A DNA stretch of 41,277 nt from Eubacteriales Family XIII. Incertae Sedis bacterium (GTDB lineage Bacteria; Bacillota; Clostridia; Peptostreptococcales; Anaerovoracaceae), in assembly GCA_031276515.1 (NCBI GenBank), contig JAISMX010000040.1:1-41277 (forward strand). Direction: 5' to 3'. The number at the start of each line of letters is the position of its first letter. Positions within the stretch are counted from its first letter, which is position 1. The translations under genes were made by a program, and so were the position numbers. A model generated the notes under the pieces. The model did no database searches. It was not told the DNA's origin and saw only the letters and a list, made by a program, of their open reading frames with translations. This document shows, in pieces, positions 17,480-35,311 of the stretch.

Positions 17480-19321
17480 TTAATTGAAAAATCTGTTTGA
17501 AATTACTTCCTGTCCCAATTCTCGTTCCGTCAACACGGAGTCGCGAGCCATATTCATCGCGCGTTCCACGATGTTCTCCAATTCTCGAATATTGCCCGGC
17601 CAATCGTATTCCATGATGTAGTTCATCGCCGCGGGCGTAAAACCCCGGACGCGCAGATCCATTTTCCGGTTGTGTTCTTGGATGAAATGTTCCACCAAGA
17701 CGGGGATGTCCTCTTTCCTCTGACGCAGAGCCGGCATATGAAAAGAGAGCACGTTGAGACGATAGTAAAGGTCTTTGCGAAAACTGCGATTTTCGATGTG
17801 TTCCGCGAGGTTTACATTGGTGGCCGCGATGATTCTCACGTCCACGTGTTTCGGCGCTTTGCCTCCTATGCGCAGAATTTCTCGCGTTTGAATAACGCGC
17901 AGCAAAAGAACCTGAATATCCAAAGGAATATCCCCGATCTCATCGAGGAAAATCGTACCGCCGTCGGCGAGTTCAAATTTTCCGGGACAACCGTCTTTGT
18001 TGGCGCCCGTGAAGGCTCCCGGCTCGTAACCGAACAGCTCGCTTTCCACGAGACTGCGCGGGAGCGAGCCGCAGTTGATCGCGACGAAAGGGAATTTCGC
18101 GCGCGGGCTCGCGTTGTGAATGGACTGGGCGAATATGTCCTTGCCCGTCCCGCTTTCACCGAGTATGAGAACGTTGCTTTCGCTGTGCGCCGCCAATTCG
18201 CCGAGCCGCTTAATGTCTTGTATGAGGTCGGAGACGCCCAGGATCCTGTCGAAATCGCAGTGTGCCACAAAACCGCCGACTTTTGACGCGATTTTTGTGA
18301 AGGTCTTGCGTTCCTCCATCATCAAAATAATTGAAATTCGATTGCCGTGTTCATCGTTCAGGACAGAGGCGGATATGGAAAGGTTGAGGGCGATTCCCAT
18401 ATTGTTCGTCACATTGAGCTCGCGGTGCGTTACGTTTTGCGTCAGCGACATAATGTCAAGCGTCGCCGTCTCCATTCTCAAAAGATTGCGTATGTTGACG
18501 CCCGTTATCGAAGATTCTTTTATCGAAGATTCCCTGAGTTTGAGCATGTCGTTCGCGCTCTTGTTGGCCTGTGTGATCACGCCGTTGTTGTCGATCATGA
18601 GCAATCCCTGCGACAGGGATTGTATCGTGGTGGAGAGTTTTTTGTTTATGAGGGATATTTCATTGTTGATTTCCAGCATCCGGAATTCTTTTTCAATCCC
18701 ATCGGCGGCGACGCAAACCATTGCGAAGGTATGCGGCGTCATGGCCGCGGACGGGCCGATTACGGCGATCACTCCGAGCAAATCGCCAAGTTTGCTCTTG
18801 ATCGGCGCGGCGTAACACACGTATCTGTGATGCGGTTGAATGAAATGTTCCTCGCCTATGATCTGAATGGGTTTTCCCGTCGCTATGCAAGTGCCGATTC
18901 CGCAGGTGCCGGATGTGCGTTCGCTTCGATTGCAGCCGATTGTGAGAGAGCTTTTCTCCGCGTGCTGTCCGATTTCCCCAAAGAGGCCCACCAAATCGAC
19001 GACATTGCCTTCTCTGTCGGACAAAGCGATCAGAAAATCCGAACCTTCGAGCATTGCGAACAGCTTCGTAAAGTAGGGATGGGTGAGAGAAATCAGCGTT
19101 TTGTTTTCTTTGAGTGCCGCTTCGAGGCGTTCCGGCGAAAGCAATTGGTCGCTTACCTCAAAGGGAGATACGCCAAATTCCTTGCTGCGTTTCCATGAAT
19201 GAAAAATGAAGGGCTTTATGCCCGGAGGCGTCTTTTTGGGAAAAGGCGCGTCGCCGGCGACATAAGTCTCCCATAAACGCGCAATCCCGCAATCTTTATC
19301 GCGATACGTTTTTTTATCCAT
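17480..19321 (-). CDS. Sigma-54-dependent transcriptional activator (AcoR-type), apparently lacking a C-terminal HTH
   Basis: The 613-residue protein starts at the ATG at 19321; the track's longer form would cover the promoter. A GAF-type sensory domain spans roughly residues 70-210, a PAS-like domain 225-335, then the AAA+ sigma-54 interaction domain ~345-575. The AAA+ part has Walker A GESGTGKD, the GAFTGA loop, Walker B TIFLDEIGD and the Arg-finger region FRKDLYYRLNV. The chain ends 36 residues after PGNIRELENIV with ISNRFFN. The Fis-type helix-turn-helix expected at the end of AcoR/PrpR relatives is not present, and only 13 bases separate this stop from argF. It is divergent from the twelve-gene operon, whose sigma-54 promoter it probably activates. 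The ligand sensed by the GAF domain is unknown. Confidence 0.92.
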   Translation of the reverse strand: MDKKTYRDKDCGIARLWETYVAGDAPFPKKTPPGIKPFIFHSWKRSKEFGVSPFEVSDQLLSPERLEAALKENKTLISLTHPYFTKLFAMLEGSDFLIALSDREGNVVDLVGLFGEIGQHAEKSSLTIGCNRSERTSGTCGIGTCIATGKPIQIIGEEHFIQPHHRYVCYAAPIKSKLGDLLGVIAVIGPSAAMTPHTFAMVCVAADGIEKEFRMLEINNEISLINKKLSTTIQSLSQGLLMIDNNGVITQANKSANDMLKLRESSIKESSITGVNIRNLLRMETATLDIMSLTQNVTHRELNVTNNMGIALNLSISASVLNDEHGNRISIILMMEERKTFTKIASKVGGFVAHCDFDRILGVSDLIQDIKRLGELAAHSESNVLILGESGTGKDIFAQSIHNASPRAKFPFVAINCGSLPRSLVESELFGYEPGAFTGANKDGCPGKFELADGGTIFLDEIGDIPLDIQVLLLRVIQTREILRIGGKAPKHVDVRIIAATNVNLAEHIENRSFRKDLYYRLNVLSFHMPALRQRKEDIPVLVEHFIQEHNRKMDLRVRGFTPAAMNYIMEYDWPGNIRELENIVERAMNMARDSVLTERELGQEVISNRFFN

Positions 19322-19343: not shown

Positions 19344-19371
19344 ATTATAGCACATATGTGCCAAGTGGCAA
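19344..19371 (-). promoter_or_regulatory. Sigma-A promoter of the activator gene
   Basis: On the minus strand TTGCCA (19366-19371), a 16-base spacer and TATAAT (19344-19349), ending 22 bases before the activator ATG. The spacer contains the 12-bp palindrome GCACATATGTGC, so a regulator bound there would block it; autoregulation is possible. Confidence 0.65.
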
Positions 19372-19393
19372 TATCTTTGGCACGTATTGGCAC
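19350..19393. promoter_or_regulatory. Cluster of TTGGCAC half-sites (candidate upstream activating sequence/operator)
   Basis: The palindrome GCACATATGTGC (19350-19361) is followed by GTGCCAA (19358-19364), then TTGGCAC at 19377-19383 and again at 19387-19393. The last two are direct repeats one helical turn (10 bp) apart, and the first is inverted to them. The cluster is ~130-175 bases upstream of the sigma-54 promoter, a normal distance for an enhancer site. Which protein binds is uncertain because the adjacent activator seems to lack an HTH. Confidence 0.5.
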
Positions 19394-19524
19394 ATAAATA
19401 TATTTGGCGGCGGTATTTTTGTGAATAATTCGACAATTGAGAAACGCAAAACGCGACAATCGCTTGCCGGCAAACAATAATTTTTATTGAAAAACAAATG
19501 CTTCGCAGAGATTCAGTCAATATC

Positions 19525-19540
19525 CGGCACGAAAGTTGCG
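19525..19540 (+). promoter_or_regulatory. Sigma-54 (-24/-12) promoter of the catabolic operon
   Basis: CGGCACGAAAGTTGCG matches the consensus TGGCACG-N4-TTGCW at all core positions: GG at 19526-19527 and GC at 19538-19539, exactly 12 bases apart. Transcription would start near 19551, 41 bases before the first ATG. A divergent sigma-54 activator gene next door strongly supports the call. Upstream lie the palindrome TTGCCGGCAA (19464-19473) and the AT-rich inverted repeat CAATAA-TTT-TTATTG (19475-19489), which could be protein-binding or bending sites. Confidence 0.8.
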
Positions 19541-19591: not shown

Positions 19592-20797
19592 ATGTCAGAA
19601 GGCTTTGCGGATTTCGAAATCACAAAAGAAGAATTTTACGGCCGACATCAAAAGTGCAGGGAATTCATCGAGGACAGGGGCTTGAAAGGGCTCGTCGTCG
19701 TATCCCCGGCGTCCGCTCCCGAAAACCTGAAATACCTGTCCAATCTCAATCTGGTGGGCGTTGATATACCGTCTTGGGCGGGCGGTTATGGCGCGGGCGG
19801 CGAATACGCGGCAATCCTGATCGGCCCCGGCTCGGAACCCACGCTGGCCATAGCCCATCATTGGTACGAGGATGTCGCGTCTCGTCAAAGCGTCGTTTCG
19901 GATATTCGAGCGAGTACCGATCTGTGGGGTCTCATAGCCGAAATCGCGGCGGAAAAGGGCATGGATCGGGGTCGCGTCGGCGTGGCGGTGGACGGGGTTC
20001 CGCTCCTTCAATACAACGCGTTGACGAAGACTCTGCCGGGCGTGGAATGGGTGGACTGCGACGACGCGCTGATCAAGCTCAAGGTCATTAAGAGCCCGGC
20101 GGAGATAGCCGTAATAGAAAGCTGTGTCGACAGGCAATGCGCCGCGCTGGCGCCGGTTGTGGACATGGTTAAGGACGGGATGCGGGAGTGGGAATTGTCC
20201 TTGGAGATCAAGCGGCGTTTGATGGAAAACGGGGCGGAATACGCGACCTGTCTGTACGTTCAAAGCGGCCCCAACACGGAAATGGCGCTTACGAGCCCGC
20301 AATCGAGCCCCAGGCGGGTCGGAATCGGAGAAATGGTTTCATTTTCCATCTTTTCGGTCTATCGAGGCTACACCGCCGGACTCGACAGGGCGACGGTTTG
20401 CGGAAAACCGAGCGACAAGCAGAAGCGGCTCGCGGAGATCGAATTGGAGGGATGCCAACGCGCGATAAGCCTGATCGAACCCGGGCGTCCCTGTTCGGAA
20501 TTCATGAAGCTTGTATACGAGGACTGCGTTGTTCCCAAACTCGAACAATACGGATTTTCGGACTATCTCATACAGGGTTACGTCGGACACGGAGTGGGCC
20601 TTTCCATCACGGAAAGACCTCTGTTGACGCGCGCCGACGACATGGTTCTCAGCCCCGGAATGGTGATCGACGTCGAACCCGGCATTTATGTAAAGGGCGG
20701 AGCGATGGGACTTCGAACCGCCCAAATCGTTGCGGTTACGGAAACGGGATCGAGGGTATTGACAAAGCTGCCGCCCAGAGTCGGCACTCTGGTTTAA
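19592..20797 (+). CDS. M24-family (creatinase/Xaa-Pro dipeptidase-like) protein with altered metal-ligand positions
   Basis: The 401-residue protein starts at the ATG 6 bases after GGAGG. An N-terminal creatinase_N-type domain (to ~residue 170) is followed by a pita-bread catalytic domain. Canonical M24 peptidases have two Asp, one His and two Glu ligands. Here the first Asp region reads MVSFSIFSVYRGYTAGLDRA with no Asp at either usual position, His is kept in GHGVGLSITERP, the first Glu is kept in VEPGIY and the second is replaced (RTAQ instead of R-x-E). Loss of metal ligands and the QSGPNT segment resemble creatinase, a metal-free C-N hydrolase of this fold, but creatinase's catalytic His (NTDGAH) is not conserved. 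It is probably a hydrolase of a C-N bond acting on the imported substrate; peptidase activity is doubtful. First gene of the sigma-54 operon. Confidence 0.8.
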   Translation: MSEGFADFEITKEEFYGRHQKCREFIEDRGLKGLVVVSPASAPENLKYLSNLNLVGVDIPSWAGGYGAGGEYAAILIGPGSEPTLAIAHHWYEDVASRQSVVSDIRASTDLWGLIAEIAAEKGMDRGRVGVAVDGVPLLQYNALTKTLPGVEWVDCDDALIKLKVIKSPAEIAVIESCVDRQCAALAPVVDMVKDGMREWELSLEIKRRLMENGAEYATCLYVQSGPNTEMALTSPQSSPRRVGIGEMVSFSIFSVYRGYTAGLDRATVCGKPSDKQKRLAEIELEGCQRAISLIEPGRPCSEFMKLVYEDCVVPKLEQYGFSDYLIQGYVGHGVGLSITERPLLTRADDMVLSPGMVIDVEPGIYVKGGAMGLRTAQIVAVTETGSRVLTKLPPRVGTLV

Positions 20798-20803
20798 GGA
20801 GCG

Positions 20804-20846
20804 GTTCAAAAATGACCCGCATATTGCGCTTGCCGTATTTTTGAAC
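20804..20846. repeat. Perfect 10-bp inverted repeat after the M24 gene
   Basis: GTTCAAAAAT (20804-20813) and ATTTTTGAAC (20837-20846) are exact complements separated by 23 bases. The stem starts 6 bases after the M24 stop. It is AT-rich and lacks a following T-run, so it is not a classic terminator; it may stabilise or divide the polycistronic mRNA. Confidence 0.55.
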
Positions 20847-20889
20847 TGTTTCTAAGTGTGTTGTTTAAATAAAGGAGGAGGTGAGAAAG

Positions 20890-21084
20890 ATGCCCGTTGT
20901 GCAAATCGAACTTTTCGGAAACAAGACCTTGGACCAAAAACGCGTGCTTGTGGATAAGGTAACCCAAGCGATCGCGGATTCGCTGAACTATCCCACGGAC
21001 TGCATTACAATCATTCTGCGGGAAATGAAAAAAGACGAATATGCGTTGGGCGGCAAATTGTATATCGATGATCCGAAATATTGA
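20890..21084 (+). CDS. 4-oxalocrotonate tautomerase-like protein
   Basis: The 64-residue product is MPVVQIELFGNKTLDQKR... after Met removal Pro-1 becomes the N-terminus, the catalytic base of the tautomerase superfamily. The perfect AGGAGGTGA 5 bases upstream of the start region supports the ATG at 20890 over the GTG at 20881. Family members are ~62 residues and hexameric, and interconvert enol and keto forms or hydrate/dehalogenate small acids. Residues around 11 and 39 that assist catalysis in 4-OT (Arg) are not clearly the same here, so the substrate is likely different. It lies between the M24 gene and the importer, which suggests a pathway step on a 2-oxo or enol intermediate. Confidence 0.82.
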   Translation: MPVVQIELFGNKTLDQKRVLVDKVTQAIADSLNYPTDCITIILREMKKDEYALGGKLYIDDPKY

Positions 21085-21120: not shown

Positions 21121-22437
21121 ATGAAGAGAAGCAAATTGTTGATCTCGATTGTGATTCTGTGTACGTTCGCTCTCGCGTTTGCGGGTTGCGGAGGCGGGAA
21201 CGAAAGCGCAAGCAACGAGGAAGCCGCGACCGAAACCGCCGCGGAAGGCGAGGGCGAAGGCGAAGGCGCCGGCACTGCGGACGCGATCAAAATCGGCGTC
21301 ATATTGCCGTTCTCGGGTCTGACCGCGACGGTTGGCGCGGACGTTCGCAATGGCCTCGAATTGGCCATCAATGAAATCAACGAAGCCGGTGGCGTCAGTT
21401 CCATGGGCGGCGCCAAGTTCGAATTGATCTTCGCCGACAGCAAGGGCGATCCGAAGACCGGCATGTCGGAGGCGGAGCGCCTGATTCTGAAAGAGGAAGT
21501 CGCGGTGTTGATGGGCGCGTACCACAGTTCGGTCACTTTTACCGCGTCTGAGATCGCGGAAAAATATCAGTGTCCCTTCCTGACATTGGTGGCGGTCGCC
21601 GACGACATCACCAATCGCGGCTTCAAATACACCTTCCGGATCAACGCCAGATCGAGCGACTGCACGAAGCTCCCGCCGGAGTTCGTCACGAGACTCGGCG
21701 AGACGACGGGCGTCAAGGCGAAAACGGTGGCCATCATCTACGAGGATTCCGAGTGGGGGCAGACGAACGCGGCGCAGTGGCGCGAAGGTTTGGCGGCCCA
21801 AAATCTTGAAATCGTGCTCGACGAGAGCTATCCCGCCAGCACGACCGATATGGTCCCCCTCGTAACGAAGGTCAAAAACGTGAAACCGGATCTTCTGTTC
21901 TCGGCCATAATGGTTTCGGACGGAATTCTTCTGGCGCAGACCTTGGATCAAATGGATGTGAATCTGATGGGTTGGTTCGGCGGCGGCAGCGGCGAACTGG
22001 ACGTCTCATACGTTCCCGCGGTGGGAGATATCGCCGACGGCATGTTCTCGCCCACAGGCGCTTGCGACGATATGCTCGACACGAAGGTGGGTTTGAAGGA
22101 ATTGAACGAAGCGTTCATCGCCAAATACGGCGGCGACAGCATCAGCAACGGCGCCGCGGTCGCCTATTGCAACGGCTATGTCCTCTTGGACGTGTTCGAG
22201 CGGGCGGGTACGACCGATCACGAAGCGATTCGGCAGGCGTTTGTGGATACGGACATCCAGGGCGGCAAAGCCGTCAGCGGCATGACCATGGATCGAATCG
22301 TCTTCGGCCCGGACGGTCACAACAGCGAGAGCTTTATCGTCATGGTGCAGTTGAGCGGCGGCAAATGGAAGGTCGCATATCCGGAAAATCTTGTAAAGCC
22401 CGATTTTACGGTCAAGTGGCCTCTGGGTGAAATATAG
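21121..22437 (+). CDS. livK: Liv-type ABC transporter substrate-binding lipoprotein
   Basis: The 438-residue product has a lipoprotein signal peptide (MKRSKLLISIVILCTFALAFAGC, with Cys23 as the lipid anchor), a Gly/Glu/Ala-rich linker and a periplasmic-binding-protein type 1 (Peripla_BP_6) domain starting IKIGVILPFSGLTATVGADV. The start at 21121 is used because it begins the signal peptide; the ORF track start 30 bases upstream has no good site. This family binds branched-chain amino acids, amides, urea, aromatic acids and others, so the ligand is open. It is followed by a strong hairpin and the rest of the importer. Confidence 0.92.
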   Translation: MKRSKLLISIVILCTFALAFAGCGGGNESASNEEAATETAAEGEGEGEGAGTADAIKIGVILPFSGLTATVGADVRNGLELAINEINEAGGVSSMGGAKFELIFADSKGDPKTGMSEAERLILKEEVAVLMGAYHSSVTFTASEIAEKYQCPFLTLVAVADDITNRGFKYTFRINARSSDCTKLPPEFVTRLGETTGVKAKTVAIIYEDSEWGQTNAAQWREGLAAQNLEIVLDESYPASTTDMVPLVTKVKNVKPDLLFSAIMVSDGILLAQTLDQMDVNLMGWFGGGSGELDVSYVPAVGDIADGMFSPTGACDDMLDTKVGLKELNEAFIAKYGGDSISNGAAVAYCNGYVLLDVFERAGTTDHEAIRQAFVDTDIQGGKAVSGMTMDRIVFGPDGHNSESFIVMVQLSGGKWKVAYPENLVKPDFTVKWPLGEI

Positions 22438-22563: not shown

Positions 22564-23433
22564 ATGCTTACGCAGGGCTTGGTAAACGGAATTTTGATGG
22601 GAGGGCTTTACGGAATCGCGGCGCTTGGCTTGAGTTTGATTTACGGCGTGCTCAACGTCGTGAACTTTGCCCACGGCGGTTTGTTGATGACGGGCATGTT
22701 CTTGGGATACTGGTTGTGGGTGTTCACGCAATTCAATATATATTTCATATTGATTCCGGTTTTTCTGGGCTTGTTCCTTCTTGGAATGCTGATAGAGAGT
22801 TCCATCATAAATCCGGTTTTGGCGAGAGAAAAGGAACAGCACGTCAACATCATCTTCATCACATCCGGCGTGATGATGGTTTTGGAGAATCTGGCGCTTT
22901 TGCTGTTTGGCCCCGAATATCGCGTCGCGGACACGTCCGTGAGCGGATTGACGCTGAAAATGGGCGAAATCGTCGTGAGCACGCCCAGGGTGCTCGGTTT
23001 CATCCTCGCGGCCATTCTTGCGGCAGCCGTCCATTCCATGCTGAGAATGACGGATTTGGGCAGGGCGATACGAGCTACGGCGGACGACGAGGACGCGGCG
23101 GCGGTCGCCGGCATCAACACGCGCAAGGTGTTTAATTTCGCGTTCGCCCTCGGATGCGCCATCACGGGCGTCGCGGGCGCTCTTTTGATACCGATTTTCT
23201 ATGTGCAGCCCACCGTTGGCGGCGTATTCAACGTCAAAGCCTTTATCATCGTGGTTCTGGGCGGAATGGGAAGTCTCAACGGCGCCATGATCGGGGGCCT
23301 CATCGTCGGTCTGATCGAATCGCTTGTGACGCTCTATTATCGGAACACCATGGCGGACATGGTCGTTTTCTTGATTTTCATCGTATTCTTACTGTTCCGT
23401 CCATCCGGATTGTTGGGCAAAAAGGAGGCTTGA
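22564..23433 (+). CDS. livH: Liv-type ABC transporter permease, LivH family
   Basis: The 289-residue membrane protein begins MLTQGLVNGILMGGLYGIAALGLSLIYGV, the LivH-type pattern, and has about eight hydrophobic segments. The EAA-like cytoplasmic loop (GRAIRATADDEDAAAVAGIN) contacts the ATPases. It ends 1 base before livM. Confidence 0.95.
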   Translation: MLTQGLVNGILMGGLYGIAALGLSLIYGVLNVVNFAHGGLLMTGMFLGYWLWVFTQFNIYFILIPVFLGLFLLGMLIESSIINPVLAREKEQHVNIIFITSGVMMVLENLALLLFGPEYRVADTSVSGLTLKMGEIVVSTPRVLGFILAAILAAAVHSMLRMTDLGRAIRATADDEDAAAVAGINTRKVFNFAFALGCAITGVAGALLIPIFYVQPTVGGVFNVKAFIIVVLGGMGSLNGAMIGGLIVGLIESLVTLYYRNTMADMVVFLIFIVFLLFRPSGLLGKKEA

Positions 23434-23434
23434 G

Positions 23435-24448
23435 ATGAGAGTACCGGGTTTGGGGAAGCAGTATTTAAAATGGATTCTTGTCGCTCTCATCGTCATCCTG
23501 CTTCCGCTTGTCATACGCGATCCATTTTCCATCCATATAGTGATCATGGTGCTGTTCATGGCGTATCTCGGCATGTGCTGGAATCTGATGGGCGGTTTGG
23601 CGGGACAGTTTTCGCTGGGACACAGCGCGTTTTTCGGTCTCGGCGCGTACACGTCCACGATCTTGTTCTACAATTTGGGAATCAGCCCTCTCGTCGGAAT
23701 CTTTGCGGGCGGAATTGTCGCGGCCGTCGCCAGCCTTTTTGTCGGATATTCGTCTCTCCGCTTAAAGAACCATTATTTCGCTCTTGCGACCCTGGCGTTT
23801 TCGCAGGTTTTGCGCGTTTTTTTCGTCGACACGCGAGAGCTTTTCGGTTTGGAGGTGCGCGGCGCGCAGGGACTGCTGCTGCCCTTGGTCGGGAATTCGC
23901 CCTTGATGCTGCAATTCGATTCAAAGACGGGCTACTATTACTTCATCGTCATACTGGTCTGCGTCATTTTGGTCGTCAGCAAAGCGGTGATGGACTCCCG
24001 TCTCGGATATTACTTGAAAGCCACGCGCGACCAAGAGCAGGCGGCCGAGTGCGTCGGGGTGCGCACCACGCGCGCCAAGGTGAGCGTTGGGGCGATCAGC
24101 GCCTTTTTTACGGCTCTCGGCGGAACGTTTTACGCGCAGTTTCTGTATTACATCGACCCGGGCGTATTCGGCCTTTCCTGGGGAATAGAGATTTTATCCA
24201 TCGTCATCATCGGCGGCATCGGCTCTTTCTGGGGACCCCTGCTGGGCGCGATCATCCTCGTTCCGCTCGGCGAAGTCACGCGGATCTATCTGAGCGGCAA
24301 TCTGGCGGGTCTGCATTTGGTGATTTACGGTCTGGTCATCATATTGGTGATGCTTTTGATCCCCAAAGGGATTGTCAGTCTGCTCGATTGGAAGAAATTC
24401 ATAAAGAAAGGGGGTGGCGGCGATGGAACAGTGCTTGCGCGTGAATAA
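23435..24448 (+). CDS. livM: Liv-type ABC transporter permease, LivM family
   Basis: The 337-residue membrane protein contains GLAGQFSLGHSAFFGLGAY, the conserved LivM segment, and the coupling loop YYLKATRDQEQAAECVGV. It pairs with LivH in the membrane. Its 3' end overlaps livG by 26 bases. Confidence 0.95.
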   Translation: MRVPGLGKQYLKWILVALIVILLPLVIRDPFSIHIVIMVLFMAYLGMCWNLMGGLAGQFSLGHSAFFGLGAYTSTILFYNLGISPLVGIFAGGIVAAVASLFVGYSSLRLKNHYFALATLAFSQVLRVFFVDTRELFGLEVRGAQGLLLPLVGNSPLMLQFDSKTGYYYFIVILVCVILVVSKAVMDSRLGYYLKATRDQEQAAECVGVRTTRAKVSVGAISAFFTALGGTFYAQFLYYIDPGVFGLSWGIEILSIVIIGGIGSFWGPLLGAIILVPLGEVTRIYLSGNLAGLHLVIYGLVIILVMLLIPKGIVSLLDWKKFIKKGGGGDGTVLARE

Positions 24449-25154
24449 TATCACAAAGAAATTCGGCGGAATGCTTGCCCTGAAAGACGTGAGCTTTCAA
24501 ACCGAAACGGGAGAGATACTCGGCTTGATCGGGCCGAACGGCGCGGGAAAGACGACATTGTTCAACATCATCTCCGGCGTGCTGCGGCAGACCGAGGGAG
24601 AGATCCTTTTTCACGGGAAATCGGTGTCGCATATGGCGCCGCACAAAATCTGCAAGTTGGGAATCGCGCGCACATTTCAGATCGTGAAACCCTTTTACAG
24701 CATGACGCTGCGAGACAATGTCGCCGTCGGCGTTATGGCGGTCGGCCACAGCAAAAACAAGGCCTTGGAAAAAGCGGATGAGGTTCTCTCCTTTCTGGGA
24801 CTGGATCAAAAATCCGACAAATTCCCCGGAGAGTTGACGCTGGCGGAGAAAAAACGTCTCGAATTGTCGCGCGCGCTCGCGACCGATCCCAAACTGCTCA
24901 TTCTCGACGAGGTGATGGCGGGCCTAAACACCAGAGAAATGCTGGATTTTACCGAGATCATCAAGACGATCCGGCAGAGAGACATCACGATCATCATGGT
25001 CGAGCATGTCATGCAGGCAATTCTGACGCTTTGTCACAGGGTCGTCGTTCTCAATTTCGGAGAGATATTGGCCATCGGCACGCCGGAGGAGGTCATCAAC
25101 GATCCGAAGGTGATAGAAGCTTATTTGGGGGACGGATACAATGCTCAAAATTGA
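24423..25154 (+). CDS. livG: Liv-type ABC transporter ATP-binding protein LivG
   Basis: The 243-residue ATPase has Walker A GPNGAGKTT, the Liv-specific RTFQIVKPFYSMTL region and Walker B LLILDEVMAGLN. The signature segment reads LTLAEKKRLELSRAL where canonical LSGGQ is expected; LivG proteins often deviate here. The ATG at 24423 lies after AAAGGGGG; the GTG at 24414 is in the ribosome binding site. It overlaps livM and livF, showing tight coupling. Confidence 0.94.
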   Translation: MEQCLRVNNITKKFGGMLALKDVSFQTETGEILGLIGPNGAGKTTLFNIISGVLRQTEGEILFHGKSVSHMAPHKICKLGIARTFQIVKPFYSMTLRDNVAVGVMAVGHSKNKALEKADEVLSFLGLDQKSDKFPGELTLAEKKRLELSRALATDPKLLILDEVMAGLNTREMLDFTEIIKTIRQRDITIIMVEHVMQAILTLCHRVVVLNFGEILAIGTPEEVINDPKVIEAYLGDGYNAQN

Positions 25155-25875
25155 GAATATGCATTCCGGTTACAAAGATGTTCCCGTTTTGCGAGAAGTG
25201 TCCCTGTTTGCGGGAGAAAACGAGATCATCGGCGTCGTCGGGTCCAACGGGGCGGGCAAAACGACGCTCTTGAAGACGATCATGGGCCTGATTCATCCGA
25301 CGGCCGGCAAGATCGAATTTCGCGGCGAGGACATCGCTTCCCTGGGGACGCATCAGATTTCGGACCTCGGCTTGGGATTGGTGTTCGAGGGTCGCAGGTT
25401 GTTTACCGGCATGACGATCGTCGAGAATCTCATGGTGGGCGGCGGCACGAAGCGAACCAAGCCGTATCGGCGGGACAAGATGGCCGAGGTTTTTGACCTG
25501 TTTCCGATCTTGAAGGAGAGAAGGAAGCAATTGGCCGGCTCTTTGAGCGGAGGCGAGCAGCAGATGCTCGCGATCGCCAGGAGTTTGATGGGTTGTCCCA
25601 AACTGCTCATGATAGACGAGGTGAGCCTCGGTCTCGCGCCGCGCGTTGTGGAATCGATCTATGAAATGCTGAATGTGATCAAAAAGGCGGATATGACGCT
25701 GATCGTCGTCGAGCAGAACATCAATCTGTGTCTCAATTTCGCCGACCGCGCCTACGTTATGGAAAACGGAAGAATCGTGGCGGAAGGCGGCGGAAAGGAA
25801 CTGTTGCAAGATCGCGGAATCAGAGACAAATATATGGGAATAAAGCCGCTGTCCGATGCGGAACGCGGCGCGTAA
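25141..25875 (+). CDS. livF: Liv-type ABC transporter ATP-binding protein LivF
   Basis: The 244-residue ATPase has Walker A GSNGAGKTT, signature LSGGEQQMLAIARSL and Walker B KLLMIDEVSLGLAP. It overlaps livG by 14 bases and completes the five-part importer. The order K-H-M-G-F is the standard one. Confidence 0.95.
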   Translation: MLKIENMHSGYKDVPVLREVSLFAGENEIIGVVGSNGAGKTTLLKTIMGLIHPTAGKIEFRGEDIASLGTHQISDLGLGLVFEGRRLFTGMTIVENLMVGGGTKRTKPYRRDKMAEVFDLFPILKERRKQLAGSLSGGEQQMLAIARSLMGCPKLLMIDEVSLGLAPRVVESIYEMLNVIKKADMTLIVVEQNINLCLNFADRAYVMENGRIVAEGGGKELLQDRGIRDKYMGIKPLSDAERGA

Positions 25876-25910: not shown

Positions 25911-26684
25911 ATGACGAACTTCAAAGATCGCACAGTGCTCGTGACCGGCGCTTCAAAGGGAATAGGCTACGTCATAGCCAAATCGTTTGCGCAGCGCGGC
26001 GCCAAGGTCGCGCTGAACGCGACAAATCAAGAGCGCTTGCGGGAGGCCTGTGAATCCCTGCGCAAGGAGACGGGCGGCGAAATTTTCGCGGCGCCGGGAG
26101 CGGTGCAGATCGCGGGCGATGCGAAGAAGATCATAGAGGACACGATCGCGCATTTCGGACAAATAGACATTCTCGTCAACAATGCGGGCGTATATCCGAC
26201 CTGCGAGGTCCGTCGCATCACCGAAGAAGAATGGGATCGCGTAATGGCGATCAACGCGAAGGGAAGCTTCTTGATGTGCCGGGACGTCGTCAACCATATG
26301 ATCGACAAAGGCATCCGGGGCCGCATCATCAATATATCTTCCGGAAATTACAAGTCGGCCATGATTGGATTCGCCCATTACTGCGCGTCGAAGGCCGCCG
26401 TGGTGATGCTGACCAAGACGCTCGCTTTGGAGGTCGCCCATCTGGGCATCACCGTGAACAGCGTGTCGCCCGGGATCGTCGATGTGGGCGCGAGCGAAGA
26501 AATCATGCCGCAGGCCTACAAGGACGCGTTTTGCAAGCAGGTTCCGAACGGCCGGCTCGGATTGCCCGAGGACATCGCGGCGGCCACGATTTTCTTGGCG
26601 TCCGACGCGGCGAACTACATCAACGGAGACGTCATACATGTGGACGGCGCGCTTGGCGCCGGAAGATACACGGTAAAGAAATAA
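25911..26684 (+). CDS. Short-chain dehydrogenase/reductase
   Basis: The 257-residue classical SDR has the cofactor motif TGASKGIG near residue 13, NNAG near residue 90, catalytic Ser in NISSGNYKS and YCASK as the YxxxK pair. The C-terminus (PGIVDVGASEEIM...ASDAANYINGDVIHVDGALG) is typical of 3-oxoacyl-ACP-reductase-like and sugar/diol dehydrogenases. The start at 25911 follows GGAGA; the ORF track version from 25728 overlaps livF in another frame. In context it probably oxidises a hydroxyl of the imported compound, or a product of it, to a ketone for the downstream complex. Cofactor choice (NAD or NADP) is not certain. Confidence 0.9.
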   Translation: MTNFKDRTVLVTGASKGIGYVIAKSFAQRGAKVALNATNQERLREACESLRKETGGEIFAAPGAVQIAGDAKKIIEDTIAHFGQIDILVNNAGVYPTCEVRRITEEEWDRVMAINAKGSFLMCRDVVNHMIDKGIRGRIINISSGNYKSAMIGFAHYCASKAAVVMLTKTLALEVAHLGITVNSVSPGIVDVGASEEIMPQAYKDAFCKQVPNGRLGLPEDIAAATIFLASDAANYINGDVIHVDGALGAGRYTVKK

Positions 26685-26724: not shown

Positions 26725-27711
26725 ATGAACAACGTTTTTGCGAAAACACAAAAGGCGCGGCTGCTAAATTTTTACCGAGTCATGTATCGGATGCGCAGAT
26801 TTGAGGAAGAGGTCTTCGAGTTTTATAAAAAGGGGATGATGCCCGGTCTTGCGCATTTGTATTTGGGCGAAGAAGCCATTGCCGCCGGCGTCTGCGCCGC
26901 GCTGAACGAATCGGATTATATCGGAAGCTCGCACAGGGGCCATGGGCATCTCGTCGCGCGCGGCGCGCGGCTCGACAAGATGATGGCGGAAATCCTCGGA
27001 AAGAAGGACGGCTACTGCAAAGGCAAAGGCGGTTCCATGCACATCATGGCGATGGACAAGGGCATATTGGGCGCGAACGGGATTGTCGGCGGGGAAATTC
27101 CCATTGCGACGGGCGCCGCTTACGCCGCGAAATACAGAGGAACAAAGCAGGTGGCCGTTTCGTTTTTTGGAGATGCCGCGAGCAATGAGGGTACCTTTCA
27201 CGAGAGCGTCAACATGGCGGCGGCTTGGGATCTTCCCGTCATTTACGTAATTGAGAACAATTTGTACGGCATTTCGGTCGACATTCGCGATGTGACCAAC
27301 ACCGAAAACCTTGCGGACAGGGCAAAAGCCTACGGGATTCCGGGCGTTGTGGTGGACGGCATGGATGTGATCGCGGTTTTCGAGGCGAGCGCGAAAGCCG
27401 TGAAACGCGCGCGCGACGGCAAGGGTCCCACGATCATCGAATGCAAGAGTTATCGTTGGCAGGGACACCACGTGGGCGACCCCGGCGAATACAGATCGAG
27501 GAAGGACAAGAACGAGAAGGCGCTGTGGATGGAGCGCTGCCCGGTGAAGAACTATCGCGCGCGGCTTTTGTCCCGCGGCGATTCGATAGACGAAAAGGAT
27601 TTGCTCGACATTGAAGCGAGCGTCGAAGAAGAAATAAAGGACGCGGTGCGCTTTGCGTCGGACAGTCCGTATCCCGACGCGTCGGAAGCGTTTGAGGACC
27701 TCTTCGCGTAG
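26725..27711 (+). CDS. TPP-dependent dehydrogenase E1 alpha subunit (acetoin/2-oxoacid type)
   Basis: The 328-residue subunit resembles AcoA/PdhA. The thiamine diphosphate motif starts GDAASNEGTFHE and ends IENN about 28 residues later; the third residue is Ala instead of the usual Gly (GDG). GSSHRGHGHLVARG and the KGKGGSMH segment (phospho/active-site loops) are conserved. With E1 beta it would decarboxylate or cleave an alpha-keto or alpha-hydroxyketone substrate and pass the acyl group to a lipoyl domain. A GTAGGAGGT ribosome binding site lies just before the ATG. Acetoin is suggested by the AcoR-like neighbour but not proved. Confidence 0.88.
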   Translation: MNNVFAKTQKARLLNFYRVMYRMRRFEEEVFEFYKKGMMPGLAHLYLGEEAIAAGVCAALNESDYIGSSHRGHGHLVARGARLDKMMAEILGKKDGYCKGKGGSMHIMAMDKGILGANGIVGGEIPIATGAAYAAKYRGTKQVAVSFFGDAASNEGTFHESVNMAAAWDLPVIYVIENNLYGISVDIRDVTNTENLADRAKAYGIPGVVVDGMDVIAVFEASAKAVKRARDGKGPTIIECKSYRWQGHHVGDPGEYRSRKDKNEKALWMERCPVKNYRARLLSRGDSIDEKDLLDIEASVEEEIKDAVRFASDSPYPDASEAFEDLFA

Positions 27712-27818
27712 ACGGCGGAAAAGGGTCCGCGCATCAAACGAGAGGCATTGCGCCGCCGCGCGCGGCATGAAAGAAACGCCGCGCGTGATTTGCCGCGCAA
27801 AGCGAAACGGAGGCGAAA

Positions 27819-28799
27819 ATGGCAAAGGAGATTCTTTACAGGGATGCGATCCGCGAGGCGCTCGATGAGGAGATGGAGCGGGACGAGAACGTGCTGCTGC
27901 TCGGAGAAGATGTGGCGTACATCGGCGGAAATTTCAAGACCTCCGTCGGACTTTACGACAAGTACGGGGATCTGCGCGTAAAAGACACGCCCATATCCGA
28001 AGCCGGGTTTCTCGGCATGGCCGTCGGCATGGCGTTGACGGGTCTCCGCCCCGTGGTCGAGCTGATGTTTTCGGATTTTCTGCTGGTGGCGGGCGATCAA
28101 GCGTTCAACCAGATGGCGAAGATCCGCTACATGTCGGGGGGACAGGCGACCGTGCCGATGGTCGTGCGAATGCCCATAGGCGCGGGCCGATCTTCGGCGG
28201 CGCAGCATTCGCAGAGCATGCAGGCCATGGCCGCGCATTTCCCGGGCGCGAAGGTGGTCTTGCCCTCCACGGCGCAGGAGGCGAAGGGTCTCCTGAAAAC
28301 GGCCGTGCGAGACGACAATCCCGTGCTGTTTTTTGAACACAAGATGGAGTACTCGAATAAATTCGTCATAGACGACGAAGTCGAGCCCATTCCGTTCGGG
28401 AAGGCCAACATCGTCATGGAAGGCCGCGACGTGAGCATAGCGGCGACATCCTCTCAGGTCATGAAGTCCGTTCGCGCCGCGGAAAAATTGCGGTCCGAAG
28501 GCATATCGTGCGAAGTGATCGATTTGAGGACCTTGGTTCCCTTCGACAGAGAAAGCGTAATCGAATCGGTGAAAAAGACGGGAAGGCTGCTGGTGGTGGA
28601 CGAGGCTTACGAGTTTTGCGGAGTGGGCGCCGAGATTGGCATGAATGTGATGAAAGACGTGTTCTACTATCTCGACGCGCCCATAGGGCGGATTTCCACG
28701 CCCAACGTCCCGCTTCCCTTCAGTCCCGCTCTCGAATTCCCGATCCTGCCCTCCGAAGAGAAGATCCTGCGGGCTGTGCTTTCCTTGATGGGCAAATAG
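27819..28799 (+). CDS. TPP-dependent dehydrogenase E1 beta subunit (acetoin/2-oxoacid type)
   Basis: The 326-residue transketolase-type beta subunit begins MAKEILYRDAIREALDEEMERDENV. Conserved points are LLGEDVA, the TPP-side Glu region DTPISEAGFLG, and the C-terminal transketolase_C domain. It forms the alpha2beta2 E1 with the gene before it. A 107-base gap without a gene separates the two; GGAGG precedes the ATG. Confidence 0.92.
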   Translation: MAKEILYRDAIREALDEEMERDENVLLLGEDVAYIGGNFKTSVGLYDKYGDLRVKDTPISEAGFLGMAVGMALTGLRPVVELMFSDFLLVAGDQAFNQMAKIRYMSGGQATVPMVVRMPIGAGRSSAAQHSQSMQAMAAHFPGAKVVLPSTAQEAKGLLKTAVRDDNPVLFFEHKMEYSNKFVIDDEVEPIPFGKANIVMEGRDVSIAATSSQVMKSVRAAEKLRSEGISCEVIDLRTLVPFDRESVIESVKKTGRLLVVDEAYEFCGVGAEIGMNVMKDVFYYLDAPIGRISTPNVPLPFSPALEFPILPSEEKILRAVLSLMGK

Positions 28800-28815
28800 A
28801 GTTTGGTGGAAAATT

Positions 28816-29877
28816 ATGGAAAACGGCAGATTGAAGATTACGCCGCGCGCTCGGAGCGCCGCGCTTCGGCGGGGGATTGCGGCGAATGAAATTCCCGCTT
28901 CCGGCACGGGTTTTGCGGGAGGCGTATGCGAAAAGGACATATTGCGATTGCCCGCCGGCGAAGGCCCGAAAGAAGAAGCGCCGAACGGCGATGTTTTCGC
29001 GCTTCGCTGTACGCCGCTCGCGCGGCGGGTCGCCGCGTCGAAAGGCGTTGACATCTCGAAAATCGCGGGAAGCGGCGCGCGCGGCAAGGTGATGAAAGCG
29101 GACGTCGAGTCCGCCGTTTCCGCCCGGCAATCCGCGAAAGAAGCCGCGGAGCTTCCCGCCGCGCGGACTTCGGACGGCAAGGCGATTCGGGAAACCAAGC
29201 CCTACGCGGGCATACGCAAGATAATCGGAACGCGTCTCGCGTCAAGCAAATTCACCGCGCCGCACCTGTATTTCACGCAGAAGGTTGACATGAAAGCCCT
29301 GCTCGCGCTCAGAAAACAGGTGAACGCGATTCTGACGAACAAGGCTTCCGTCACGGATTTCATCGTGCGCGCGGTCGCGCGCTGTTTGATCAAATATCCC
29401 GACATGAACGCGTCGCTCGCGGGGGACGTCATTGAGCTGTACGAAAGCGTAAATGTGGGCGTTGCCGTAGCGGCGCCCGCGGGTTTGATCGTTCCCGTGC
29501 TGCGCGATTGCGAAAAGAAATCGCTCGAGCGGATCGCGGAGGAATCGGCCGCTTTGGTGGCGAAGGCGCGAGACAATAAATTGAAACCCGACGAGTACAG
29601 CGGAGGCACCTTCACCGTTTCCAACCTCGGCATGTTCGGCATCGAAAACTTCACCGCCATAATCAATCCGCCGGAATCGGCCATACTCGCCGTGAGCGCC
29701 ACGAAGGATGAGGTCGTCGCCGCGGACGACGGCAGCGGAGGCAAAACGGTCGACATCCGGCCAATGATGCATATCACGCTGACCGTGGACCACAGGATCA
29801 TCGACGGCTTATTGGCGGCGCGCTTCGTGACGGACGTAAAGACGATTCTCGAAAACCCGCTCGAAACGCTTATATAA
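28816..29877 (+). CDS. Dihydrolipoamide acyltransferase E2 without a lipoyl domain
   Basis: The 353-residue protein is an E2 core. It starts directly with two peripheral-subunit-binding-like segments: about residues 7-44 (KITPRARSAALRRGI...) and 62-99 (CTPLARRVAASKGVDISKIA). The catalytic domain from ~125 ends with the active-site motif DHRIIDG (His and Asp). The usual N-terminal lipoyl domain with its DK motif is absent; the only one in the locus is on E3. The first segment is degenerate, so the count of two is a tentative reading. E2 transfers the acyl group from lipoate to CoA and forms the core of the complex. Confidence 0.86.
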   Translation: MENGRLKITPRARSAALRRGIAANEIPASGTGFAGGVCEKDILRLPAGEGPKEEAPNGDVFALRCTPLARRVAASKGVDISKIAGSGARGKVMKADVESAVSARQSAKEAAELPAARTSDGKAIRETKPYAGIRKIIGTRLASSKFTAPHLYFTQKVDMKALLALRKQVNAILTNKASVTDFIVRAVARCLIKYPDMNASLAGDVIELYESVNVGVAVAAPAGLIVPVLRDCEKKSLERIAEESAALVAKARDNKLKPDEYSGGTFTVSNLGMFGIENFTAIINPPESAILAVSATKDEVVAADDGSGGKTVDIRPMMHITLTVDHRIIDGLLAARFVTDVKTILENPLETLI

Positions 29878-29925
29878 TTCTATTGCCCGGCGCCGGCAAA
29901 GCAAGGAAAAGGGAGGATGTTTCAA

Positions 29926-31683
29926 ATGGTTGAAGCCATTATAATGCCCAAATTGGGTTTCAATATGAGCGAAGGCAAGCTCGTGTGCTGGTATAAAAAA
30001 GAAGGCGATGCCATCGGCAAAGGAGAGCCGTTTTTTTCCATTGAAACGGACAAAACGACGATCGACGTGGAGGCGACGCGGGACGGCATCGTCCGCAGTC
30101 TTCTTTTTCGCGAGAACGAAACGGTCCCCGTAATGCTTCCGATAGCGATCGTTTCCGACGCGGACGAGAATATTGAGGCCGAATTGAAAGCCGCCAAGGA
30201 GCGTTTGGCGGGCATCTCCTCGCCCGGACAAACGCCTTCGCTTTCCGCGTCCGGCGCGCCTTCGGTTCCCGCGCGATCGGATCAACCCGCGCCTTCCGGC
30301 GGCGCGCGCCGCAGGGAGTATGACGTCATTGTCATCGGAGGGGGTCCCGGGGGCTACGTGGCGGCAATCAGATCCGCTCAACTCGGGAAACGCGTCGCTT
30401 TGGTCGAAAAAGACAAAATGGGAGGCGTCTGTTTGAACCGAGGCTGCATTCCCACAAAGACCTTTCTGCGCGGCGTCGAAGCGCTGAGAGAAGTGAGAGA
30501 TTGTGAGCGATACGGCGTTTCCTGCGCGGACGCGCATCTGGCCGGCATCGATATGGAAAAATTGCAAAAACGGAAAAACGAAATCGTCGCCCAATTGGTC
30601 GGGGGCGTGGAAAGCCTCTTGAAAAAGAACGGCGTGGAGAAGTTCGACGGAACCGGCGCGATAGTTGACGCGAATTCCGTGGAAGTAAACGGAAAAACAT
30701 ACACATCGGAACACATCATAATCGCCACGGGTTCCCTTGCAAAGACACTTCCGGTTCCGACGGACGACGACATGCGTCCGCTCACGTCGGACGACCTGCT
30801 TTCAATGACGGCCTTGCCGCAGGACATGCTGATCGTCGGCGGCGGTGTGGTTGGCGTGGAATTGGCGTATTTTCTCGTTTCCGCGGGCGTCAAGGTGAGA
30901 ATCGTGGAGTTTTTGGATCGCATATTGCCGATGATCGATGAGGAGATCGCCGAATTGGCCTCGAAAAAACTCAAAAACTTGGGCGTGATCGTGGACACGG
31001 GAGCGCGCGTGACGAGGATTGCCGAAGGCGCCGTCTTCTTTGAGAGCGATGGACGCGAACACAGGGCGGAGACGCGGAATGTGCTGATGGCCGTCGGCAG
31101 GGAGGCGAATCTCGGCGGGATCGATTGCGAGAAGCTCGGAATAGAGCTTGATCGCGGCGCCATCGCCACGGACGCGTCCCTCAGAACATCCGTTCCGAAC
31201 ATTTTCGCGATTGGCGACGTCAACGGAAAGAACATGCTTGCGCACACGGCTTCGATGGAGGGGATTGTTGCGGCCGAAACCATTGCGGGCCATGCATGCG
31301 CCATGAATTACGACAGGATTCCAAGCGTCGTTTACTTGCGTCCGGAGTTGGCGAGCGTTGGCTTGACCGAGGAGCGGGCGCGCGAAAAATACGCGTCCGT
31401 GAAGGTCGGGCGTTTTCCTTTGGCCGCGAACGGCAAGGCGAAGGTGGCGGGCGAGAGCGAGGGTTTGGCAAAGATCATAATCGAGGAAGAATACGGAGAA
31501 ATCGTGGGCGCGCATCTCTACTGCGCCCACGCCACGGATATGATCGCGGAAATCGTAACCGCAATGAACCTTGAAGCGACGGCGGATGAGATTGCGATGA
31601 CGGTGCATCCGCATCCGACGATTTCCGAAGTCATTCAGGAGGCGGCGCACGCCATCCGCGGGAAAGCGATTCATTTCGCCTGA
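29926..31683 (+). CDS. lpdA: Dihydrolipoamide dehydrogenase E3 with N-terminal lipoyl domain
   Basis: The 585-residue fusion carries a lipoyl domain at residues 1-75 (IMPKLGFNMSEG, lipoyl Lys43 in ETDKTTID), an Ala/Pro/Ser linker to ~120 and a full E3 flavoenzyme. E3 features are FAD motif GGGPGGYVAA, redox disulfide CLNRGCIP, the NAD-binding GGGVVGVELA and the C-terminal HPHPTISE with the catalytic His/Glu. GGAGG at 29912-29916 serves the ATG at 29926, not the one at 29917. E3 reoxidises dihydrolipoamide with NAD+. Lipoyl-bearing E3s are known from acetoin and pyruvate dehydrogenase systems; here it seems to be the only lipoyl carrier. Last gene of the operon. Confidence 0.94.
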   Translation: MVEAIIMPKLGFNMSEGKLVCWYKKEGDAIGKGEPFFSIETDKTTIDVEATRDGIVRSLLFRENETVPVMLPIAIVSDADENIEAELKAAKERLAGISSPGQTPSLSASGAPSVPARSDQPAPSGGARRREYDVIVIGGGPGGYVAAIRSAQLGKRVALVEKDKMGGVCLNRGCIPTKTFLRGVEALREVRDCERYGVSCADAHLAGIDMEKLQKRKNEIVAQLVGGVESLLKKNGVEKFDGTGAIVDANSVEVNGKTYTSEHIIIATGSLAKTLPVPTDDDMRPLTSDDLLSMTALPQDMLIVGGGVVGVELAYFLVSAGVKVRIVEFLDRILPMIDEEIAELASKKLKNLGVIVDTGARVTRIAEGAVFFESDGREHRAETRNVLMAVGREANLGGIDCEKLGIELDRGAIATDASLRTSVPNIFAIGDVNGKNMLAHTASMEGIVAAETIAGHACAMNYDRIPSVVYLRPELASVGLTEERAREKYASVKVGRFPLAANGKAKVAGESEGLAKIIIEEEYGEIVGAHLYCAHATDMIAEIVTAMNLEATADEIAMTVHPHPTISEVIQEAAHAIRGKAIHFA

Positions 31684-31742
31684 GCGGGAATTCGGAAAGC
31701 GCAAAATGCCGCCAAATTCCCGCGCAGACAAAAGCTTTTTTC
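31684..31742. terminator. Terminator region between the operon and the convergent SLH gene
   Basis: GCGGGAATT (31684-31692) and AATTCCCGC (31715-31723) form a 9-bp stem with a 22-base loop. AAAAGCTTTTTT follows at ~31731-31742, with a T-run on the plus strand and a short A-run read from the other side. It is placed between two convergent transcription units, so a plus-strand terminator that may also work in reverse is likely, although the T-run is 12 bases from the stem. Confidence 0.5.
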
Positions 31743-34011
31743 ACGGAGTCTGTTTTGTGATGTGGAGCGTGAAGACGGCCTCGTCGCCGCCGTTTGCGGG
31801 ACCCTTGAGGTTTAAGGCGATCGTGGTCGTCGAGCCTTCTCCCTCAACCAAGTTTATGGTCCGCTTCTCGCCGCTGCGTATGGCGGCGCTCTTTCCGTCC
31901 TGCGTGAGCGTGGCCGTGAATTCCGCGCCGAAGCCGAAGGACACGTTCACGCTCTTGTAGTTGGCGGGTACGGTGCATGCGTAGGTCTTGCCGTCGGCCC
32001 CTCCGGCCGTCGGATTTTCGGGCGTCGCTCCCGACACGTACACGCTGTCCGGCAGAGGTGCGTTTTCGCGCACGGTGATCGTGTATCGCTGCTTGCTCTT
32101 GCCCGACTCGGAGGTTTCGACGACGATGGTGTGCGGAATTCCCGGCGTCGCGGGCAGTTCTATGCGCTCCGAGTTCGCGCCGCTCGCCACGATGCGCCCG
32201 TTCACGATGATGTCCGTGGACGCGTATGCCGTGGGCCGCACGACGATGTGGGAGCTGCCGTTGCTCACGGCGACGCTCGGGTAATCGCGCGCGTTCGCGT
32301 CGAAAGCGAAGCCGCCGGTGACGCGGCCGCCATCCACGGCGATGGAGAGACCCGTCAATCCTCCGGATTGCGTCGTCTTCTCCACGATTCCCGTGTAGGA
32401 GACGGAGGAGAGCGCCCCGGACGGACCTTCCAGACAGGCGTAGACGCGGTATTTGGTGTTCATCGATATCGCGGCGCTCGTCGCCGTGTACGTGTTCTCC
32501 ACGTTCGGAACGCTGCCCTTGTCCACGACCTTCTGGTTTTCGTTGGCGGTTCCCGCTTTGACCTTTTCGGGCGTGGGCGGCAGCGCGCCGCCGCTCTCGG
32601 CCACGGCGATCCAGTGGAAGGTCCCCTTCGCGTTGACGCTGACCGTTATTTCGAGCGCATTGCCGGCGTTGATGCCGGCGTTCAAACTGCGGATGGTCGG
32701 CGTGCCGACGCCGGCGGTCGTGAAGGATCGCGCTTCGACCCTGGAAAATTCATTCGCGTTCTTGGAAACATAACCATAAACATCATAGGATGTTCCAACT
32801 TTGAGTTCCGTTATGTCGATGTTCAGGCTCCTGTTCCTTTCGATGGGAACACTGCCCGATTTCAATGCCTTGTCTCCGCCCCTGTCGTTGCCGGCGGCGA
32901 TGTTCGTCTGCGACGGCCTGCCCGCGCTGTTCTCAACGAGCACCCAGTAGAAGGTTCCTTTTTCGGTGGAGCTGACGGTCAGGAGGGCGGTTTTTTCGGT
33001 GATCGTCCCGACGCTGAAATTGCTGATCCAGTTTTCGCCGATGTCGGCTTCGTCCTCGGTGTTGAAATGCAGACTGCGCACGTTGGAGAGTTTGCCGTCG
33101 CCGCCCTTCACGGTCGCGTACATCGTGTAAGGCTTCGCGGCCGTGAGCCCGTCCATGGTGACGGACGCCCGCTCGTACGCCTTGACCTTGACGCTGCCCT
33201 TCTTGAAGGCGGCCGCGCCGGCGGAGTCCTTGCCCTGCGATATCTGCTGCGCCGTCGGTTCGGAACGCGGTTTTTCGAGCAGAACCCAGTACAGGGTGCC
33301 GCCGGTTCGCGATGTGGCGTTTACGACCGCGCGCACGTTGTCGTAATCCGAAATGGCGAATTCCGTGATGGCCCTGGAATCTTGATCTATGCCCAACACC
33401 TTGTTGATGACTTTGACGGTTTCCGCCCGCGTCAGATTGCGATTGGGATAAAAATTGCCGTCGGGATAGCCGGTCAGATAGCCCTTGGTGTAGGCGGAAT
33501 TGACGGCCTCCGTCGCCCAGGCGCCTATCTCTTTCGCGTCCAAAAGCCCCTTTGGCGTCTTCTTCGTGCTTTCGCCCGGCGATATCCGAAAGAGCACCGT
33601 CGCGACCTCCTGACGCGTGATGGGGCTGTCCGGGGCGAACCACGTGCCGCCGTCGTAGCCCGCTATGTAGCCGGCCGCGGCGGCCTTTCTCACCTCATCG
33701 TAATACCATTCGTGCGGAGGCACGTCGACGAAGGCGATGTTGCCGAAAGCCGTATAACCCATCGCCGCGTTGATTACCTTGACGAACTCGGAGCGCTTGA
33801 TGGCCGCGTCGGGCAGGAATCGGCCGTCGGCGTAGCCGTTGATGTAGCCTCGGTCGACGGCGCTGCGGATTTCCTCGTCGGCCCAGTGTCCCACCGTGTC
33901 CACGAAATTGGACGCGCCATGAGCGGACGTTCCGGGCCAAAGCGCGGCGGCCGGCGCGGACGCGAGCAGAGAGAGGGCGGCGATTGACAAGATTCTCGAA
34001 ACTGTTTTCAT
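31741..34011 (-). CDS. S-layer-homology domain surface protein
   Basis: The 756-residue secreted protein has a signal peptide (MKTVSRILSIAALSLLASAPAAA), with the ATG at 34011 chosen from GGAG 9 bases upstream. Three SLH domains follow at about residues 37-205 (HWADEEIRSAVDRGYINGYADG; WYYDEVRKAAAAGYIAGYDGG; WATEAVNSAYTKGYLTGYPDG), which attach proteins to pyruvylated cell-wall polymer. Three similar ~105-residue fibronectin-like repeats lie at about 215-545, each with a GTxYWVLxE-like start. Next is a cadherin-like beta-sandwich segment (~550-650) and a final one to the end. No catalytic domain is visible, so it is probably structural or adhesive. It is preceded by the small 111-residue gene 57 bases away. 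Confidence 0.92.
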   Translation of the reverse strand: MKTVSRILSIAALSLLASAPAAALWPGTSAHGASNFVDTVGHWADEEIRSAVDRGYINGYADGRFLPDAAIKRSEFVKVINAAMGYTAFGNIAFVDVPPHEWYYDEVRKAAAAGYIAGYDGGTWFAPDSPITRQEVATVLFRISPGESTKKTPKGLLDAKEIGAWATEAVNSAYTKGYLTGYPDGNFYPNRNLTRAETVKVINKVLGIDQDSRAITEFAISDYDNVRAVVNATSRTGGTLYWVLLEKPRSEPTAQQISQGKDSAGAAAFKKGSVKVKAYERASVTMDGLTAAKPYTMYATVKGGDGKLSNVRSLHFNTEDEADIGENWISNFSVGTITEKTALLTVSSTEKGTFYWVLVENSAGRPSQTNIAAGNDRGGDKALKSGSVPIERNRSLNIDITELKVGTSYDVYGYVSKNANEFSRVEARSFTTAGVGTPTIRSLNAGINAGNALEITVSVNAKGTFHWIAVAESGGALPPTPEKVKAGTANENQKVVDKGSVPNVENTYTATSAAISMNTKYRVYACLEGPSGALSSVSYTGIVEKTTQSGGLTGLSIAVDGGRVTGGFAFDANARDYPSVAVSNGSSHIVVRPTAYASTDIIVNGRIVASGANSERIELPATPGIPHTIVVETSESGKSKQRYTITVRENAPLPDSVYVSGATPENPTAGGADGKTYACTVPANYKSVNVSFGFGAEFTATLTQDGKSAAIRSGEKRTINLVEGEGSTTTIALNLKGPANGGDEAVFTLHITKQTP

Positions 34012-34068
34012 AAATCGATCTCCGTACCAAAGCAAGCGCGTCGCGGCGACATGAGAGACGCGCTCGCG

Positions 34069-34464: not shown

Positions 34465-34490
34465 TCGTTTACAAAGGTCGTTTACAAACG
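34465..34490. repeat. 13-bp tandem duplication at the end of the TIR gene
   Basis: TCGTTTACAAA occurs at 34465-34475 and again at 34478-34488, with a period of 13 bases. The second copy includes the TIR gene stop codon (34482-34484), so it looks like a small slip duplication at the gene's 3' edge. Confidence 0.7.
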
Positions 34491-35288: not shown

Positions 35289-35311
35289 AGTCTCTCCTCG
35301 AATCAATTCAA

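Follow-up and report, generated by a model that had tools for sequence, protein, structure and literature searches.

A catalytic M24 metallopeptidase carries five metal ligands (Asp, Asp, His, Glu, and Glu, or DDHEE; below, Asp1, Asp2, His, Glu, and the last Glu). Creatinase (1CHM, 7YTO, 1KP0) has a pita-bread fold with an N-terminal domain and is metal-free. It keeps the ligand His and Glu but has Asn, Ala, and His in place of Asp1, Asp2, and the last Glu. Ectoine hydrolase (DoeA/EutD; 6TWJ, 6TWK) has the fold and altered ligand positions as well, but its pattern is E/P/Y/M/T, so that neither the His nor the Glu is kept. Here we compare these systems with a locus in a 41,277-nucleotide stretch of DNA (the window), where an initial annotation had noted an M24 protein that has lost most of its metal ligands.

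The segment that the initial annotation singled out (20260-20740) and the peptides that it quoted lie inside a longer gene (Table 1). This gene starts with ATG, has a good ribosome-binding site (GAGGAGGG) just 5' of it, and has a codon-position GC pattern that resembles that of its neighbors. Its reading frame is open over all 401 codons. The protein has both a Peptidase_M24 domain (PF00557, 1.8e-34) and a Creatinase_N domain (PF01321, 5.5e-12), each above the Pfam cut-off. The AlphaFold model, from a 32-row alignment, has a mean pLDDT of 90.2. In Foldseek searches its top matches were prolidases (TM of 0.71-0.81 by query length), and creatinase and EutD matched with a TM of 0.76-0.79 by query length. 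By its domains and its prolidase/creatinase fold, the protein belongs to the M24 superfamily. Its best matches by both sequence and fold are Xaa-Pro dipeptidases (PepQ/prolidase; 1PV9, 1WY2), but the D/D/E ligands that are present in those enzymes are missing here, and the protein scores only 125 bits against the NCBIfam model for PepQ (NF040821, cut-off 630).

Table 1. Features of the locus, with positions in the window.
Feature	Position	Strand	Basis or remark
Sigma-54-dependent activator (GAF, PAS, AAA+)	17480..19321	-	PF00158 7e-66, PF01590, PF13188; divergent to the M24 gene
Palindromic operator-like site, TATGTGCCAA-N12-TTGGCACGTATTGGCACATA	19355..19396		Between the activator gene and the M24 gene
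Candidate -24/-12 promoter element, CGGCACGAAAGTTGCG	19525..19540	+	Sole GG-N10-GC of the intergenic region
M24/creatinase-fold protein without the Asp1, Asp2, and last Glu ligands	19592..20797	+	401 aa, full-length
Ser252 codon TCC	20345-20347	+	Ligand Asp1 position; creatinase Asn249
Gly263 codon GGA	20378-20380	+	Ligand Asp2 position; creatinase Ala260
Asp265 codon	20384..20386	+	Creatinase Glu262 position
His333 codon	20588-20590	+	Ligand His, kept; creatinase His324
Glu362 codon	20675-20677	+	Ligand Glu, kept; creatinase Glu358
Ala377 codon GCC	20720-20722	+	Last ligand Glu position; creatinase His376
4-Oxalocrotonate-tautomerase-type protein	20890..21084	+	PF01361 6e-15; 64 aa, Pro directly after Met
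Liv-type ABC substrate-binding lipoprotein (start set by eye)	21121..22437	+	PF13458 1.3e-54; PDB 8wch 7.8e-52
Liv-type permeases	22564-23433, 23435-24448	+	PF02653
Liv-type ATPases	24414-25154, 25141-25875	+	PF00005, PF12399; LivF-like
Short-chain dehydrogenase/reductase (SDR; start approximate)	25920..26684	+	PF13561 8.5e-61
2-Oxoacid/acetoin-dehydrogenase-like complex (E1-alpha, E1-beta, E2, lipoyl-E3)	26725..31683	+

We set the ligand positions by aligning the protein with some 165 M24 sequences besides the Pyrococcus prolidase 1PV9. They read Ser252, Gly263, His333, Glu362, and Ala377 (SGHEA), with phmmer and MAFFT in agreement, and neither placed intact ligands elsewhere in the open frame. 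The protein lacks the five-ligand set of the catalytic metallopeptidases, and the initial annotation was right that both Asp and the last Glu are replaced while the His and one Glu are kept. DDHEE is intact in 140 of the 166 distinct M24 sequences that we collected, and SGHEA is found in our protein only, although this collection is not a census because its members were chosen by similarity to the query. The loss is real, but it is less special than it had first seemed: the proteins without DDHEE comprise creatinase, a set of Micromonospora proteins, an Oscillospiraceae protein (L162), the DoeA group, L059, L061, an E/D/H/E/E group, and one D/C/H/E/E protein. As these departures form a few separate groups, ligand loss is recurrent in the M24 fold, and it is the SGHEA combination that is unique within the collected set.

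The likeness to creatinase that the initial annotation had pointed out also held up, in that the same three positions are replaced and the same two are kept (N/A/H/E/H in creatinase). There is a further likeness that it missed: Asp265 occupies the position of creatinase Glu262 (numbered as in 1CHM, from the alignment), so that both proteins have an acid there. This strengthens the case for a creatinase-like mode of action. Each collected group in which only the His and the Glu are left of the five ligands has an acid at this position, and among the metal-intact proteins only one clade does. The acid may be a shared way to fill the emptied metal pocket, to judge from this handful of lineages. 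Several of the collected proteins show the feature: seven Micromonospora proteins (L122, L124, L127, L150, L156, L161, and L167) and L162, from an Oscillospiraceae MAG, lack Asp1, Asp2, and the last Glu and have the His, the Glu, and the acid. Like our protein, L162 (G/E/H/E/S) and the Micromonospora group (S/E/H/E/S in L122, L124, L127, and L150) have an acid at the 262 position (Glu in their case), but they differ in that they keep the "PH" histidine, have Glu at the second site, and stand apart in the tree.

Despite these likenesses, we consider it highly improbable that the protein is a true but very diverged creatinase or ectoine hydrolase. The fold matches, and the AU test does not reject a creatinase clade (p of 0.11), though it does not favor one either. 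But it is only about 26% identical to creatinase, and creatinase's His232 aligns with Leu233, with a small gap nearby and no His in the segment, which bears out the earlier remark that this His is absent. Also, no Arg aligns with either Arg64 or Arg335, which we take to be carboxylate-binding in creatinase (the alignment is loose around 64). Given the absence of these three residues, creatine is an unlikely substrate. The protein lies in a different part of the tree from creatinase, there are no creatinine genes around it, and a creatininase gene was not found in the genome (77% complete). Glycine/sarcosine reductase B gave no hit either, but as that search was silent in every control genome, the result carries no weight. 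As for ectoine hydrolase, the protein scores far below the cut-offs of the NCBIfam models (67.3 bits against 613 for TIGR02993 and 61.8 against 575 for NF038259), and there are no doeB-like or other ectoine genes beside it in the window.

No relative above 36% identity turned up in about 800 genomes (the best was 32% in 351 genomes of the family and 36% in 399 of the phylum). The best match in a plasmid collection was about 28% identical, peptide patterns found no close orthologue among genome contigs, and SGHEA was absent from all 80 loci found with a profile of the nearest relatives. In a maximum-likelihood tree of 60 rows, the protein clusters (98/98) with three groups, L058/L152, L094/L107/L113/L155, and L038/L066, and creatinase, the Micromonospora proteins, and DoeA are placed elsewhere. 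The three groups are only 25-32% identical to our protein, and unlike it they have intact ligands or just a Glu at Asp1; L058 shares with it an adjacent Liv-type transporter. The group with Glu at Asp1 (L094, L107, L113, and L155, E/D/H/E/E) is mostly encoded beside peptide-type ABC transporters and M20/M28 peptidases. As the branch of our protein is long (1.53) and sits beside mostly metal-intact proteins, its ligand loss looks independent of that in creatinase. We favor this origin but do not regard it as proven, as the AU test rejects neither the creatinase clade (p of 0.11, as above) nor a Micromonospora/L162 clade (p of 0.08).

The long branch and the lack of a found orthologue would also fit a former metallopeptidase that is degenerating, with selection on its active site relaxed and the gene being lost, and the changes at Asp2 and at the last Glu are each reachable by a single-base change from an Asp or Glu codon. 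We think that this is quite unlikely. The frame is open over its full length, with a good start site and neighbor-like codon-position GC, and the complete fold is predicted confidently. Also, the protein retains 23 of the 30 columns that are at least 90% conserved in metal-intact M24 members. Of its seven mismatches, five fall at ligands, at a ligand neighbor (254), or at the His of the prolidase "HE" motif (Thr340), and the remaining ones are R164K and A178C. This retention is only a mild argument against general decay, because most of the best-conserved columns belong to the active site anyway. The full-length fold, the open frame, and the concentration of substitutions in the active site speak instead for a hydrolase.

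The surroundings of the gene, which the initial annotation had missed, speak for a catabolic enzyme more than for a binding protein that stands alone: a sigma-54-dependent activator is encoded divergently, and the tautomerase (58.6 bits against TIGR00013, cut-off 56.9), Liv-type transporter, SDR, and dehydrogenase complex all follow on the M24 gene's strand. The M24 gene is probably the first of an inducible uptake-and-breakdown operon. The activator and the operator-like site are clear. The 10-nucleotide arms of the palindrome are 100% complementary, and the half-site TTGGCACRTA has three copies in the window, all at this site, versus 0.09 expected. The GG-N10-GC element is a candidate promoter only, but it is well placed, about 52 nucleotides 5' of the ATG; its support comes from this position, because GG-N10-GC is no more frequent in the window than expected by chance. 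A hairpin with an 18-bp stem (20797-20853; z of −1.5, not significant) lies between the M24 and tautomerase genes; it may be an attenuator or belong to a repeat element. Because it could attenuate read-through, a single M24-tautomerase transcript is not certain, and the operon genes may have separate promoters, which would count against the reading that we favor.

That reading, to which we give just under an even chance, makes the protein a C-N hydrolase that resembles creatinase, needs no metal, and acts on an imported compound. The sigma-54 activator would turn the operon on and the Liv-type transporter would bring the substrate in. The former metal pocket would now bind an organic ligand: Asp265 and Glu362 might hold its C-N group, which would be cationic or polar (amidino, ureido, or cyclic amide), and His333 would be the remaining acid/base residue. 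The protein would then cut the C-N bond, and the tautomerase, the SDR, and the 2-oxoacid-dehydrogenase-like complex would handle the carbon product. Against this reading, we cannot assign the general base confidently, because His232 is replaced by Leu233 and the "HE" His of prolidase by Thr340, and we found no orthologue in which Asp265, His333, and Glu362 could be seen to be conserved as a set. A more specific version is possible but rather doubtful: a metal-free M24 hydrolase of separate origin from both creatinase and ectoine hydrolase. Its catalytic set would be new (Asp265, His333, and Glu362, and no His232), as would its substrate, which would enter a tautomerase/dehydrogenase pathway.

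A second possibility is that the protein is a non-catalytic pseudoenzyme, which uses its M24 fold either to bind a ligand or an intermediate of the operon or to modulate another protein (the activator or a different enzyme). Ebp1/PA2G4 is an M24-fold protein that acts without chemistry, and our protein has lost both of the other conserved active-site histidines as well as three ligands. The existence of non-peptidase M24 members (PMC3888471) counts for this possibility too. However, inducible transporter/catabolism operons usually carry enzymes, and in a pseudoenzyme His333, Glu362, and Asp265 would have no need to persist as a set, so we consider a pseudoenzyme unlikely. Third, the same three residues are potential ligands left in or near the site, and His333 and Glu362, with Asp265 or a residue from the other subunit, could hold a single metal. 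A mononuclear metalloenzyme of this kind seems very improbable to us, as both Asp and the last Glu are gone and creatinase, with the same combination lost, does without metal.

The pairing of an activator with an M24 gene is an established arrangement in this bacterial family. Relatives of the activator (41-65% identity) are present in 27 of 349 family genomes, and in 17 of the 20 regions that we fetched from related genomes, the activator gene adjoins an M24 gene. Most of the fetched regions also have a dehydrogenase complex near the pair, and GTGCCAA/TTGGCAC inverted repeats were present in three of the six paralogous activator-M24 intergenic regions that we inspected. The M24 proteins of the 17 regions are at least 77% identical to L003, a second M24 protein of the same genome as our protein. 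In one such pair, our protein takes the place of the usual M24 partner, to which it is only some 22% identical. Its place in a recurrent pair supports a regulated metabolic role. The second M24 protein (L189:768-2003 on contig C97 of this genome, and L190-L208) has Cys at ligand Asp2 (D/C/H/E/E, "GYKTCYYRTF"). Its gene diverges from that of a sigma-54 activator, and genes for a hydroxyacid dehydrogenase, transporters, and a 2-oxoacid-dehydrogenase complex are close by. The best NCBIfam match of this second protein, far below the cut-off, is the DMSP lyase DddP.

If our favored reading of an enzyme is correct, then another M24 metallopeptidase scaffold would have been converted to a metal-free C-N hydrolase, and the locus would point to an uncharacterized inducible pathway for a nitrogen compound in uncultured Clostridia. 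The signature (loss of Asp1, Asp2, and the last Glu together with an acid at the creatinase-262 position) could then be used to find more such proteins; relatives of this kind carry the annotation "Xaa-Pro peptidase" even without the metal ligands. Our literature search found no paper that links M24, a Liv transporter, and a tautomerase, and no match to the Liv-type substrate-binding protein at E ≤ 1e-60 was found in 60 genomes.

The 5' part of the window encodes ribosomal proteins, SecY, a methionine-aminopeptidase-type M24 protein, RpoA, and ornithine carbamoyltransferase. Because of the ribosomal-protein/secY/rpoA setting and a fairly even GC content, the locus looks chromosomal. Directly after the dehydrogenase genes, on the opposite strand, is a gene for a protein with S-layer homology and cadherin-like domains (31741-34035), and a further minus-strand gene (34482-35306) encodes DUF1883 and TIR domains and is possibly a defense effector.
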